Shown here: positions 20,088-25,301 of the stretch, piece by piece | Layout: every line of letters starts with the position of its first letter | How positions within the stretch are numbered: the stretch's first letter is position 1 | NCBI RefSeq assembly: GCF_000230715.2 | Contig: NC_019792.1 | Coordinates: 620,001-684,000 of the forward strand | Reading direction: 5' to 3' | DNA from: Natronobacterium gregoryi SP2 | Lineage (GTDB): Archaea > Halobacteriota > Halobacteria > Halobacteriales > Natrialbaceae | DNA length: 64,000 nucleotides | Notes under the pieces: model-generated | What the model saw: only the letters and a program-made list of their open reading frames with translations | Databases searched by the model: none | What the model was told of the DNA's origin: nothing | Made by a program: the position numbers and the translations under genes

Positions 20088-20407
20088 GCTGTCCATCGAT
20101 TAGAGTGGGCTCCGGCTCGCACGCTCTCTCGCGAGACCCTGTCGACTCCTGTTGTGTTTAGCCGACAATACTACTGGCTCAGTCTGGCAGCCGGATCGTG
20201 AGTCGTCGTCGCAAATGTGGTCCGGAGTTGCTGTCCGTCGGTGTCTGTGAAACAGCGAATTACTCTGCTTGTACCGATACAGCGACATAGTAGTCTGTGG
20301 GTCGGGTCGGCCAGTCTCGAGGAAACCGTAGCGAGCGACTTCCTCGTTACACAGTATTGGAAATAGAGCACAATATATTAATACCTCCCCTCCGTACCAC
20401 GACGTGT
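20088..20407. other. Intergenic region with the VKOR promoter
   Basis: No gene seen. The end contains CACAATATATTAATACC (about 20370-20386), a strong TATA box 25-30 nt before the VKOR-like start codon. Confidence 0.5.
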
Positions 20408-21043
20408 ATGTCGACGAAAACCCGATCCATCCGATCCTTCGACTCCGAGTGGCAGTACTCCTCGAGCGTCTCGTTCCTGTTTGGGACGTTCGCGGCTGTC
20501 GCCGTCCTCGGTTGGCTGGTCAGTTCGCTGTTGACCGCAATCCACGTATTCGCACTCCCTGCAATACCGGCTGACGCGCCAGTGCAGGGAAGCATCGAGG
20601 TCATCACGAGCCAGTGGGCCTACGTGTTCGGCGTGCCCCTCGCGACGCTTGGTGCGTTCTACTACCTGCTCACGCTCGGATTCACGCTCTGGTGGTTCGA
20701 CACGCGTCACCCCCTGATCGTCAAGATCCTCACGCCGCTCACGGCGTCTGGCGTCGTCTTCTCGGCGTTTTTCGTCTGGCTCCAACTCGTTCCGATCGGT
20801 GAAATCTGTCCGTTCTGTATGATGTCGGCAGCCGCGACTGTGATCCTCTTCGGACTCGAGTTGGCGATCCTCCGACGGAGCGATGCACCGCCACTCTCCG
20901 AGATGGTTGGTGACGCTGGGACGTTGTTCGATCAGACCAACGTCGCCGTCGTCGTCATCCCGATGTTGATCGGTCTGGTCGCCATCGTCGGGATGTTCCT
21001 GATTCCGCTCCTGCCGCTCCCGGACCCGGTTCCGTTCGCGTAA
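20408..21043 (+). CDS. Vitamin K epoxide reductase (VKOR)-family membrane protein lacking loop cysteines
   Basis: 211 aa from ATG 20408, leaderless after a strong TATA box. Five hydrophobic segments. The VKOR redox motif CPFC lies in GEICPFCMMSAAATVILFG, and SQWAYVFGVPLATLGAFYY is the usual conserved helix. VKOR proteins reoxidise DsbA-like partners with quinone. The protein contains only the two CPFC cysteines: the loop pair normally found before the SxxA...G.P helix is absent (VQGSIEVITSQWAY in its place). It may use a different shuttle, accept electrons directly at CxxC, or be non-catalytic. A DsbA-like lipoprotein is encoded at 54651-55292. Confidence 0.82.
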   Translation: MSTKTRSIRSFDSEWQYSSSVSFLFGTFAAVAVLGWLVSSLLTAIHVFALPAIPADAPVQGSIEVITSQWAYVFGVPLATLGAFYYLLTLGFTLWWFDTRHPLIVKILTPLTASGVVFSAFFVWLQLVPIGEICPFCMMSAAATVILFGLELAILRRSDAPPLSEMVGDAGTLFDQTNVAVVVIPMLIGLVAIVGMFLIPLLPLPDPVPFA

Positions 21044-21413: not shown

Positions 21414-22444
21414 TCGCTCGCTTCCGCGAGCAACTCCTGTGTGGCCTCGTCCGGCCGCTTATCGAGCCACTCCTCGGCGTCGAGGGCAGCCATACTTCCC
21501 GTGCCGGCGGACGTGATCGCCTGCCGGTAGTCGGGGTCCATCACGTCGCCCGCGCCGAAGACGCCCGCGACGGTCGTCTCGGTGGTCATCCCCTCGAGGG
21601 TCTCAAGGTGCCCGCTGTCGGACAGTTCGACTGGCGTGTCCTCGAGAAAGTCGGTGTTGGGGACGTGGCCGACGCCGTAGAAGATGCCGCCGACGTCGAC
21701 CTCTTCCCGTTCGACGTCGTTGCCGTCGTCTCGCTTCTCTTTCGGGCGGCCGTCGGGATGTGAGAGCAGTGTCGCACCGGTGACGCCGGTCTCCTGGCTG
21801 CCGTGGATCTCGAGCAGTTCGGTGTTCCAGCGGAACTGGATATCGTCGTGTTCGAGGGCGCGGTCGGCCATCACCTCGGAGGCCCGGAGCTCGTCCCGGC
21901 GGTGGACGACGGTGACACTCTCGGCGAACTTCGTGAGGAAGAGTGCTTCCTCCATCGCCGAGTCGCCGCCCCCGATCACGAGCACGTCGTCGCCACGGTG
22001 GAACGCGCCGTCGCAGGTCGCACACGTCGAGAGGCCATAGCCCATCAGTTCGTCCTCGTTCTCCGCGCCGACCCAGCGGGCGCTGGCACCGGTCGCGACG
22101 ATGAGTGCCCCCGTCCTGACGACCTCGCCGTTCGTGAGTGTGAGTTCGAACGGCCGATCCTCGAGAGTCGCGTTCTCGACGGTTCCGTGAGCGAACTCTG
22201 CCCCGAATCGCTTTGCTTGCTCTTTACCCCGCTGGATCAGCTCCATGCCGCCGACGCCTTCGGGAAAGCCCAGGAAGTTCTCGACGTCGGTCGTTAACGT
22301 CAACTGGCCGCCGGGTTCTGGGCCTTCGAGCACGAGCGGCTCGAGGTCGGCCCGTGCGGCGTAGACTGCTGCCGAGAGGCCAGCGACGCCGGAGCCGGCG
22401 ATCACTACGTCTCGAATTTCGGCCGCGTTGCCCGCATCGCTCAT
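21410..22444 (-). CDS. trxB: Thioredoxin-disulfide reductase
   Basis: 344 aa from ATG 22442-22444. FAD-binding GSGVAGLSAAVYAARADLEP, the redox motif CATC (STCATCDGAFHRGDD), NAD(P)-binding GGGDSAMEEALFLTKFAE and the C-terminal FAD motif GVFGAGDVMDPDYRQAITSA define a low-molecular-weight thioredoxin reductase. It reduces thioredoxin with NAD(P)H or F420-type donors; the pyridine specificity motif HRRDELRA favours NADPH. The start overlaps the thioredoxin stop by 4 nt, so trxA-trxB form an operon. The stop TAG lies inside the end of a repeat element. Confidence 0.93.
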   Translation of the reverse strand: MSDAGNAAEIRDVVIAGSGVAGLSAAVYAARADLEPLVLEGPEPGGQLTLTTDVENFLGFPEGVGGMELIQRGKEQAKRFGAEFAHGTVENATLEDRPFELTLTNGEVVRTGALIVATGASARWVGAENEDELMGYGLSTCATCDGAFHRGDDVLVIGGGDSAMEEALFLTKFAESVTVVHRRDELRASEVMADRALEHDDIQFRWNTELLEIHGSQETGVTGATLLSHPDGRPKEKRDDGNDVEREEVDVGGIFYGVGHVPNTDFLEDTPVELSDSGHLETLEGMTTETTVAGVFGAGDVMDPDYRQAITSAGTGSMAALDAEEWLDKRPDEATQELLAEASD

Positions 22445-22800
22445 TCGGTGTACTCGTCGATTAGGCCCCGCAGTCGGTCTTCGGGCAAGACACCGACGTG
22501 CTGTTCGACCTGTTCGCCGTCCGCGAACAGCAGGATCGTCGGCACACCTCGGACGCCGTAGTCGCCGGCCAGTAGCTGGTGTTCGTCGACGTCGACCTTC
22601 GCGATCACGGCGTCGGTTTCCTCGGCCAGCGTCTCGAGGACGGGCTCGAGCATCTGACAGGGGCCACACCAGTCGGCGTAGAAGTCCACGAGGACGACGT
22701 CGTGGTCGGTGACGACGTCGTCGAGGTGCTGCTCACCGTCGACGTAGAGTGGCTCGTCTGCAGGGGTGCCGTTCGTTCCACTGTGTGCATCAGTTGCCAT
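22441..22800 (-). CDS. Thioredoxin
   Basis: 119 aa from ATG 22800, preceded by GAGGTG and, further up, CCTTTAAACG as TATA box. Classical thioredoxin with VDFYADWCGPCQMLEPVLET, VDVDEHQLLAGDYGVRGVPT (cis-Pro) and LLFADGEQVEQHVG. A ~25-residue acidic extension precedes the fold. Cytoplasmic disulfide reductant, translationally coupled to its reductase. Confidence 0.93.
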   Translation of the reverse strand: MATDAHSGTNGTPADEPLYVDGEQHLDDVVTDHDVVLVDFYADWCGPCQMLEPVLETLAEETDAVIAKVDVDEHQLLAGDYGVRGVPTILLFADGEQVEQHVGVLPEDRLRGLIDEYTE

Positions 22801-22960
22801 CACCTCTTGATACGGCCCACTGCCGTTTAAAGGTTTGTGTTTATTGTACAATACAGTGGCGACGGTAGGAGAGCCGACGGACGGAGACACTCAGTTACGA
22901 GATAGACCCGGCCGTCCAGTCGATCCGCTTCCAGAGCAGTGACCTGCACAAGAGACGCGA

Positions 22961-24823
22961 TCAGACAGGCTCGAGTTCCGTCAAGGCCCTATCGTACGTC
23001 TCGTGGATGCGATCACGAGCCGACTCGTCGAGGTCGCGGCGACGTTTGACGTCGTACCCGTAGACGCCAGGTCCCTCGCGTAGGGCCTCTTGATCCTCTT
23101 CCCGAGCGGTAATCGTCTCGGACCGGAGCCGCGTTACGTCGGCGGCGTCGGCGTCGACGGCCCTGGCGTAGTCACGTTCGAGCCACTCCTCGACGCCGAT
23201 CGCGTATGCCTCCTGGACGACATCGCGGTATCGCTCCGGCAAGACGTTGTACGAACAGAACGGGACGACGCGACCGTCTGGCATTCCGTAGTGGACGCTA
23301 CACCGTTCGACCCGGTCGACGTCGTAGTTGTACGGGTCCATGAAGTGCATCATCCCGAGGAACAACGCGTTGCGATGGAACTCGACGAGACCGTCGTACG
23401 TCCCGGACCTGAGCGACTCGAGGAGCCACCGACCGAAGTGGACGTCGTCGGGTTCGGCCGATCGGTCCACGACTCGATACAACTCGTAGGCGAGACGCGT
23501 GCCGACGCGGGCCCGCTGGAGACGCCCGAGCGGCGCGTCGAACTCGTCAGCGAGCTCCTCGAGTGCCCGCAGGAACTCGTCGACGTCGACGAACTCCGTA
23601 ATCGGGACGAGACGATCCTCGTCGACGTACGCGTACGTTGCCATGCCACACGCAAAGTGTGCCGAAAGCTCGTAGAGCGGTCGCTCGTTCCACAGCCAGG
23701 AGAACGCGCTGACCGGGAGAACACTCGGGACCGGATACCACGCGTCGGCCGGAATCGCGCCGTTAGTGCCGTCCTCGATGGCGTGGATGGCATCGGGAAT
23801 GGTCACTCGCTGGGCGTGACGCTGGTGGTCGGGCATTCGGCCGACCAGCGAGACGGGCTGAAAGTTCACTCCTCGGACGACGTCGATGTTCGCAGCAGCG
23901 AACCGGATGATGTCGGCGAGTTGGTGGTCGTTCTGTCCGCCGATGACTGTCGGCACGAGGACGACCGGTAGCTGGGCCTCCCTGCAGGCACGGAGGGCGT
24001 CGGGCATCTCCCAGTAGTTTTTCGGGTTCGTTTCCGGGTCCACACCGTCGAAGCTCGTGTACAGGGTGTTGACCCCGGCCTCCCGGAGGTCGTGAGCGAG
24101 CGCGGTGTCGTCCGCCAACGTCGCACCGTGTGTGTTGAGCTGAATGTGGTCGACCACCTCCCCGACGGTCTCGACGACCTCGTCGATATCCTCACGCAAC
24201 GTCGGCTCGCCGCCGGTGAGCTGTATGGCGTTACAGCCGATCGGCTCTTCGTCGGCCATCGCCGCTGCCATCTCTCGAATCTGGGACTTCGTCGGCTCGT
24301 AGAGTGGGTCGTCTTCGCGGGCGTAGAAAAAGCAGTACCAGCACGAGAGATCACACCGATTCGTGACGGAGACGTTGCCGAGTCCGGTGTGGGACTCGTG
24401 TGCCGGGCAGAGTCCGCAATCGGTCGGACACGTGGGGACACCGTCCGGCTCGTGGTGAGACGAGCCGAGGTGGTCCGACTCGTCGTCCCACGCTCGAGCC
24501 CGATAATACAGCGACGCGTCCCGCCAGTATACGTCACGAATCTCGCCGTGGTCGTCACACACCTTGGCGAGCCGAATCTCGTCGGCGGCCTCGTAGACGA
24601 CCATCGGGACGAGCAGGTCGTCGTCTCGGTCGGCGGCGACGCAGTCAGGACAGAGACTGCCCGTCACCTTCAGGTACCGATCCGCGCCCGGCGCGATCCG
24701 CGACGCAAAATCGATCGCGTCCTCTCGCGAGAGTGGTGCGCGAGACGAGACGGTCACCTGTCTCGATCGACCCTCGTTTTGCTGTATTCTCTGCCCCGAT
24801 TTCGACGGTTGCTCCCCAGCCAT
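22961..24823 (-). CDS. Radical SAM protein with tetraether lipid synthase (Tes)-like architecture
   Basis: 620 aa. Order of features: CPDC and VCDDHGE (an N-terminal metal/FeS site, about residues 58-90), CPTDCGLCPAHESHTGLG (about 131-148), then the radical SAM cluster CDLSCWYC (CxxxCxxC, about 156-163), LTGGEPTLREDIDEVV for SAM binding, and a long C-terminal part with further cysteines (HFACGM, ERCSVHYGMP, VVPFCSYN). This arrangement is that of the MJ0619/Tes family, which joins the two isoprenoid chains of archaeal lipids into tetraethers or macrocycles. Haloarchaea mostly make diether lipids, so the actual substrate is open. Single gene. Confidence 0.8.
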   Translation of the reverse strand: MAGEQPSKSGQRIQQNEGRSRQVTVSSRAPLSREDAIDFASRIAPGADRYLKVTGSLCPDCVAADRDDDLLVPMVVYEAADEIRLAKVCDDHGEIRDVYWRDASLYYRARAWDDESDHLGSSHHEPDGVPTCPTDCGLCPAHESHTGLGNVSVTNRCDLSCWYCFFYAREDDPLYEPTKSQIREMAAAMADEEPIGCNAIQLTGGEPTLREDIDEVVETVGEVVDHIQLNTHGATLADDTALAHDLREAGVNTLYTSFDGVDPETNPKNYWEMPDALRACREAQLPVVLVPTVIGGQNDHQLADIIRFAAANIDVVRGVNFQPVSLVGRMPDHQRHAQRVTIPDAIHAIEDGTNGAIPADAWYPVPSVLPVSAFSWLWNERPLYELSAHFACGMATYAYVDEDRLVPITEFVDVDEFLRALEELADEFDAPLGRLQRARVGTRLAYELYRVVDRSAEPDDVHFGRWLLESLRSGTYDGLVEFHRNALFLGMMHFMDPYNYDVDRVERCSVHYGMPDGRVVPFCSYNVLPERYRDVVQEAYAIGVEEWLERDYARAVDADAADVTRLRSETITAREEDQEALREGPGVYGYDVKRRRDLDESARDRIHETYDRALTELEPV

Positions 24824-24956: not shown

Positions 24957-25301
24957 CTACTCGTCGTCGCCAGCGAGCGCGACCGGGTCCGGATACGACT
25001 CGAGGTCGCGTACCTCTCGGGTCGTCCGTCCGTCGTCCGATTCGCGGTAGTGGTGTAGTTGAATCCACTCGATCTGGCGATTGTACCTGATTGCCACGCG
25101 CTCCCAGATCTCTCCGCCGTCGGCGTCGGGCTGGATCGAGCGCGTCTCGTAGGCCCGAATCTCGTAGTCGCCGTCGGCATACCCCATCACCTCGAGCGTC
25201 GTTCGCTCGGGTTCGAGTTCCGCCGCGGCGTACTCGAGGATGCGATCGGCGAGGGCGTCCAAAAGCGCGAGCGAGGGAACACCGTCGTCGCTGTTCGTCA
25301 T
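24957..25301 (-). CDS. Conserved haloarchaeal hypothetical protein
   Basis: 114 aa, acidic. Helical start (ALLDALADRILEYAAAELEP), then strands with VMGYADGDYEIRAYETRSIQ and RVAIRYNRQIEWIQLHHYRE. No recognised family or catalytic motif. It lies 133 nt upstream of the radical SAM gene on the same strand. Composition is typical of the genome and the start ATG is unambiguous. Confidence 0.6.
   Translation of the reverse strand: MTNSDDGVPSLALLDALADRILEYAAAELEPERTTLEVMGYADGDYEIRAYETRSIQPDADGGEIWERVAIRYNRQIEWIQLHHYRESDDGRTTREVRDLESYPDPVALAGDDE

Follow-up and report, generated by a model that had tools for sequence, protein, structure and literature searches.

The window, i.e., the whole stretch of 64,000 nucleotides of Natronobacterium gregoryi SP2 that was analyzed, carries on its minus strand, in downstream order, a 114-aa gene, a gene of the tetraether-lipid synthase family (tes), trxA, and trxB. 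The features of the locus are as follows.

21410 to about 22444 (start inferred), minus strand: trxB, a pyridine-nucleotide-disulphide reductase gene, forming a flank and not part of a tes operon.
22441-22800, minus strand, ATG at 22800: trxA (thioredoxin), likewise a flank and not part of a tes operon.
22825-22853, minus strand: conserved promoter region of trxA, in the gap that separates the tes stop from the trxA ATG, with the palindrome TATTGTACAATA at 22842-22853 and TTTAAAC at 22825-22831; similar in three congeners.
22961-24823, minus strand: tes, encoding a 620-aa radical SAM tetraether-lipid synthase (Tes/GDGT-MAS family), assigned from frame, profile, ligands, fold, and tree.
23255-23650, minus strand: C-terminal auxiliary [4Fe-4S] site, C392, M492, C508, and C523 (MJ0619 C338, M439, C455, and C470) with Y512 (Y459), from the residue map; Met439 and Tyr459 as given in the accessible part of PMC9433317.
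24332-24355, minus strand: radical SAM cluster motif C157-X3-C161-X2-C164 (CX3CX2C), from the residue map and Pfam.
24398-24430, minus strand: N-terminal auxiliary [4Fe-4S] site, C132, C136, C139, and H142 (MJ0619 C73, C77, C80, and H83), from the residue map and the accessible part of PMC9433317.
24548-24652, minus strand: rubredoxin-like iron site, C58-X2-C61 ... C89-X2-H92 (MJ0619 C9, C12, C33, and H36), from the residue map; site as in the accessible part of PMC9433317.
24904-24915, minus strand: candidate TATA-like element ACTATAATAAAC, 81 bases upstream of the tes ATG, proposed from sequence resemblance only.
24957-25301, minus strand: 114-aa gene with no Pfam family, marking the other flank; in three tes-less congeners it lies immediately before trxA.

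The frame at 22961-24823 runs unbroken from ATG to TGA over 620 codons, and its product scores 677.4 bits (cut-off 450, E 1e-203) with the NCBIfam model NF045702, "tetraether lipid synthase Tes". Furthermore, it matches PF04055 at 93 bits and PDB 7TOL at E 6.6e-109 over residues 41-549, the GDGT-MAS of M. jannaschii being the sole full-length relative with known structure found. The motifs CPDC (C58 and C61), CPTDCGLCP (C132, C136, and C139), and CDLSCWYC (C157, C161, and C164) claimed in the initial annotation are all present, as are the later cysteines it had mentioned (C392, C508, and C523). It is confirmed that the open reading frame at 22961-24823 on the minus strand is a real gene and that its cysteine motifs and family match are not due to chance, and sequence, structure, and phylogeny all support the identification of the protein as Tes. 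Judging from the sequence, the automatic NCBI annotation should carry the name Tes.

The definitions of the cofactor sites were taken from the accessible part of Lloyd et al. (2022; PMC9433317) and mapped through a joint alignment; H83 is our own assignment for the "conserved histidine" of the N-terminal cluster, which is unnumbered there, and C338, C455, and C470, also unnumbered, were assigned to the C-terminal cluster by invariance. In that alignment, all 15 metal-ligand positions of MJ0619 are retained in the window protein together with Y459 and Q268. G359 and G223, the other intact copies from haloarchaea, have the same set, and so do 109 of 109 archaeal Tes loci used as reference, which comprise 79 named-genome loci (from the best 80 of 518 relatives) and 30 further loci. 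The comparison of active-site residues, here those of the cofactor sites, that the initial annotation had proposed as a check comes out for Tes. The C-terminal cluster with its labile Met is described as the site of the S-C intermediate in the accessible part of PMC9433317. An AlphaFold2 model of the window protein, built from an 18-row alignment, reached pLDDT 79.2 and pTM 0.84 and superposes on 7TOM (498 aa) with TM 0.90 and on 7TOL (493 aa) with TM 0.91, by target length, with an rmsd of 2.6 and nearly the whole enzyme covered; the next-best structural matches are MoaA chains at a TM of about 0.5. Briefly, the window protein resembles MJ0619 along its whole length (about 40% identity over 482 aligned residues) and shares its fold and all four metal sites, but differs in about 50 extra N-terminal and 70 extra C-terminal residues, both partly of low confidence in the model, and in its host, a haloarchaeon without reported tetraethers.

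Whole-family searches of four halobacterial families covered 125 + 170 + 18 + 146 = 459 genomes. The initial annotation had called the enzyme conserved, a description that does not hold for Halobacteria: the intact type is sporadic, occurring in 3 of 459 genomes (the window's genome, G223, and G359). A second type (B) was found in 7 of 459, and no genome of the 459 carries both. Tes was not found in 123 of the 125 genomes of the family of the window's genome, all four congeners included. Among 14 genomes searched as controls, only three yielded a Tes match, and Haloferax volcanii was not one of them. A class-wide draw of 391 genomes yielded four above the Tes cut-off, all within the ten carriers of the intact or B type, and 16 with partial matches only (234-269 bits); these 16, together with the partial matches of 18 genomes and G339 from the family searches, are excluded from the intact and B counts. 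The other two intact copies are 65-67% identical to the window protein, and pairwise dN/dS among the three is 0.22-0.34, a rough estimate at dS 0.8-1.2.

A third type (C) is represented by four tested proteins, three from the 16 partial-match genomes and one from a family-wide search. Each scores higher on the TrsS model (339-358 bits, cut-off 490) than on the Tes model and falls under both cut-offs. The C-type proteins (e.g., L115, L116, L017, and L127) share the rubredoxin-like and radical SAM sites with the window Tes, but all four lack the N-terminal cluster, M439, and Y459, and they fall outside the Tes clade in the 51-row tree described below. The C type is probably the commonest "Tes homologue" of Halobacteria and is likely to be counted as such by BLAST; it is in part plasmid-borne (Haloarcula halophila, Salinirubellus, and Halorarius). 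The accessible part of Zeng et al. (2022; PMC8941075) had already placed Tes homologues in 20 Halobacteria genomes, described their function as unclear, and noted that strains analyzed earlier showed no GDGT; Methanococcus maripaludis is the test host published there. The term "Tes homologue in Halobacteria" covers three things, with the coupling cluster kept in one only, and, as far as our searches show, the division of the halobacterial homologues into intact, cluster-less B, and TrsS-like C types, with the window gene in the intact type, is new with respect to the literature searched.

The main tree comprises 51 rows under LG+C20, nine of them halobacterial (three intact and six B-type). 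Tes is split from the TrsS-like outgroup at 100/100, and the nine halobacterial rows form a single clade inside Tes (100/100), which recurs in smaller trees; the window protein is therefore not in a distant clade, one part of the outcome that the initial annotation had named as contrary to its reading. Within the clade, the three intact copies group together (95/87), as do the six B-type rows (100/100). Its placement with Thermoplasmata, DPANN, and Hydrothermarchaeota has support of 96/88 and 100/96, whereas Archaeoglobi, MJ0619, and the remaining methanogen-like rows lie apart from it; amino-acid composition is unusual in several rows, halophilic ones included, and the deep branching is less certain than these support values. 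Tes of Thermoplasmata, Archaeoglobi, and DPANN (e.g., L041 from Thermoplasma sp. and L049 from Archaeoglobus sp.) is 45-52% identical to the window protein among the best 80 of 518 relatives and has identical ligands, whereas the halobacterial clade sits on a separate long stem (0.58). Many hosts of such Tes are known GDGT makers, whereas the haloarchaeon is not.

Vertical descent from a methanogen-like ancestor was rejected: constraining the nine halobacterial rows with seven rows of the methanogen-like block, on the premise that families f14, f21, f23, and f28-f30 are the nearest relatives of Halobacteria, lowered the log-likelihood by 175.5 (p-AU 1e-53). A constraint joining the window gene with the copy from the same family (G223) was marginally rejected (p-AU 0.045), which is at most suggestive with respect to transfer within Halobacteria. 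No close donor is visible, none of the best 80 of 518 relatives exceeding 52% identity. A further candidate (L031, "Halobacteriales archaeon MAG107", JAIVGT010000156.1) was not counted as halobacterial; it groups with Thermoplasma, sits on a 3-kb contig, and is probably a binning error. A virus-borne origin was rejected, as a tblastn search of 50,697 phage records found nothing and viral_contigs yielded one pattern match and no relative. A plasmid-borne gene was rejected as well: seven plasmid records matched, all below 31% identity, and five of them are also the best matches of the C type. Horizontal transfer most likely brought the gene into this lineage, as one free-standing cassette. Since the GC content of tes (0.64) is like that of the window (0.63), the acquisition, if it took place, was not very recent. 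Gain of tes is favored over loss elsewhere because of its rarity; the empty site alone cannot separate the two.

This empty site is seen in three congeners (G166, G320, and G084), where trxA and trxB come immediately after the 114-aa gene and the genome yielded no Tes; the fourth congener, G362, with a genome 85% complete, yielded neither the flank nor Tes. G084 has the exact palindrome (TATTGTACAATA) upstream of trxA, and G320 has TATTGCACAATA and G166 TATTGTGCAATG in its place, followed in each by a TTAAA element; this conservation implies that tes is a free-standing unit, with the end of a gene on one side and the promoter region of trx on the other. The 114-aa gene, present in three of the four congeners, was not found in the other intact tes carriers (G359 and G223), whose neighborhoods have nothing in common with the window locus among the nine window genes compared, and no companion lipid gene was recognized beside the window tes. 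The remark that the gene stands alone near thioredoxin genes was accurate, as the next genes on that strand are trxA and trxB, and trxA has its own conserved promoter region. An operon linked to thioredoxin was rejected on the basis of the trxA promoter region kept downstream of tes, the three congeners having the same trx genes without tes, and the differing neighbors of the carriers; a functional link of tes to thioredoxin is doubtful. As separate observations, the perfect palindrome TATTGTACAATA resembles an operator of the kind that a thioredoxin regulator would bind, and a VKOR-family membrane protein encoded close to trxA-trxB (20297-21043) is possibly a disulfide-forming partner.

With its cofactor sites, fold, placement, and reading frame all intact, the window gene probably encodes a catalytically complete tetraether synthase (Tes/GDGT-MAS). 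By analogy with M. jannaschii, the radical SAM cluster would generate a 5'-deoxyadenosyl radical, and this would abstract a hydrogen from an archaeol phospholipid, at the methyl that ends one of its saturated phytanyl chains. The C-terminal [4Fe-4S] cluster would then trap the resulting carbon radical through a carbon-sulfur bond until a second radical attacks the cluster-bound carbon and the two chain ends are joined. Geranylgeranyl reductase is needed for saturated chains, and the window's genome has four genes of that family above the cut-off. A Piwi-domain (Argonaute-like) gene is also present in this genome. Products may be macrocyclic archaeol and/or GTGT/GDGT, and perhaps mixed C20-C25 chains, which are proposed because haloarchaea produce sesterterpanyl archaeols. 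Since the enzyme needs several oxygen-sensitive clusters, its activity, if expressed, would probably be confined to low oxygen or particular growth conditions, and such restriction could explain why the product has gone unseen. Between the two options raised in the initial annotation, unreported lipid coupling and a different substrate, the intact coupling cluster favors coupling as the predicted role.

Halobacteria are a standard example of archaea without tetraethers, as stated outright in the accessible parts of, e.g., PMC6423904 and PMC10704169. A known family occurs here in an unexpected host, which may make lipids unreported from Halobacteria. Tetraether or macrocyclic lipids were not found in the nine Halobacteria strains of Bale et al. 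(2019; PMC6423904), and none is reported in the seven-strain Halobacteria lipidome of Yao et al. (2023; PMC10704169), as far as the accessible text of each goes; from that text, neither set is known to include carriers of intact tes. Halorubrum lipids are described without caldarchaeols in PMC2739508, the accessible part of which mentions macrocyclic archaeols as background only, and the accessible parts of PMC12042123 and PMC9385802 add nothing on Halobacteria. No report of a tetraether or macrocyclic lipid from Halobacteria was found in the accessible portions of the open-access literature searched. With an intact Tes in a complete genome, and in a species that can probably be cultured, the exception lends itself to a direct test by lipid extraction, and a halophilic source, if true, would matter to geochemistry for GDGT and extended-archaeol signals in hypersaline deposits.

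An alternative that we regard as unlikely, but worth weighing, is that the coupling chemistry is that of Tes and the substrate or product is other than GDGT, e.g., C25 sesterterpanyl chains, macrocyclic archaeol alone, or some other isoprenoid. The absence of GDGT from the Halobacteria of PMC6423904 and PMC10704169, as far as their accessible text goes, speaks for it, and the long halobacterial stem allows a substrate shift. Furthermore, according to the accessible part of PMC8941075, the Tes homologue MA_1114 of M. acetivorans yields no GDGT and just a trace of macrocyclic archaeol, so membership in the Tes family does not by itself determine the product; an Altiarchaeum geyser community bearing tes is described, in the accessible part of PMC13003381, as a source of extended tetraethers that contain C25 chains, which makes C20-C25 products thinkable in a haloarchaeon. 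Against this stand the unchanged cofactor sites and the high overall fold agreement with MJ0619, and substrate-specific evidence was not found. That tes is a recent import, silent or without a role in its host, appears improbable: its absence from the four congeners searched and from 123 of 125 family genomes, together with the empty site in three congeners, would fit, but the frame is intact, the ligands are retained in three separate lineages, the GC content matches that of the window, pairwise dN/dS is well below 1, though rough, and a candidate promoter lies upstream. The reading of the protein as a TrsS-like enzyme or as a pterin methylase (MJ0619 was formerly taken for a "class D methylase"), suggested by the Pfam label Zn_ribbon_HMPTM of the N-terminal domain and by partial resemblance to the TrsS model (NF045646, 283.7 bits), can be dismissed as very improbable, given a TrsS score far below its curated cut-off of 490 beside a Tes score above its own, the 100/100 separation in the tree, and the accessible account of Lloyd et al. 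(PMC9433317), in which pterin activity was not confirmed and lipid coupling was demonstrated.

Tetraether synthesis by the intact enzyme remains the preferred reading, although the lack of tetraethers in the Halobacteria strains cited, the MA_1114 result, the lack of a recognized companion lipid gene, and the unshared neighborhoods of the three carriers count against it. A broader proposal can be put forward tentatively, at somewhat below an even chance: some haloarchaea would make membrane-spanning or macrocyclic isoprenoid lipids, possibly with mixed C20-C25 chains, via a horizontally acquired Tes, and the sister enzyme without the coupling cluster, paired with a methyltransferase, would run a different radical reaction on the same lipid-handling scaffold. 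This sister B type comprises seven full-length proteins (L113, L171, L172, L173, L174, L175, and L176, from genomes G303, G806, G786, G416, G451, G452, and G415), 51-56% identical between genera. It is the sister group of intact Tes in the tree and retains the radical SAM and rubredoxin ligands and Tyr459, but in all seven proteins M439 is replaced by R or K, the substitutions C338S and C470S are present, and C77 and H83 are missing from the N-terminal cluster. Without the coupling-cluster ligands, the B type could not, by the published mechanism, hold the S-C intermediate, so a different reaction would be expected, and the intact and cluster-less sister enzymes offer a natural experiment on the role of the C-terminal cluster. 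A methyltransferase neighbor was seen at none of the three intact loci, whereas a homologous class I methyltransferase gene adjoins the B-type gene on the opposite strand at all seven of its loci (query L173 and six others). The model of the B-type protein of G303 retains the Tes fold (TM 0.80 to 7TOM, rmsd 7.3), with low confidence at residues 132-176, the expected place of the N-terminal cluster.
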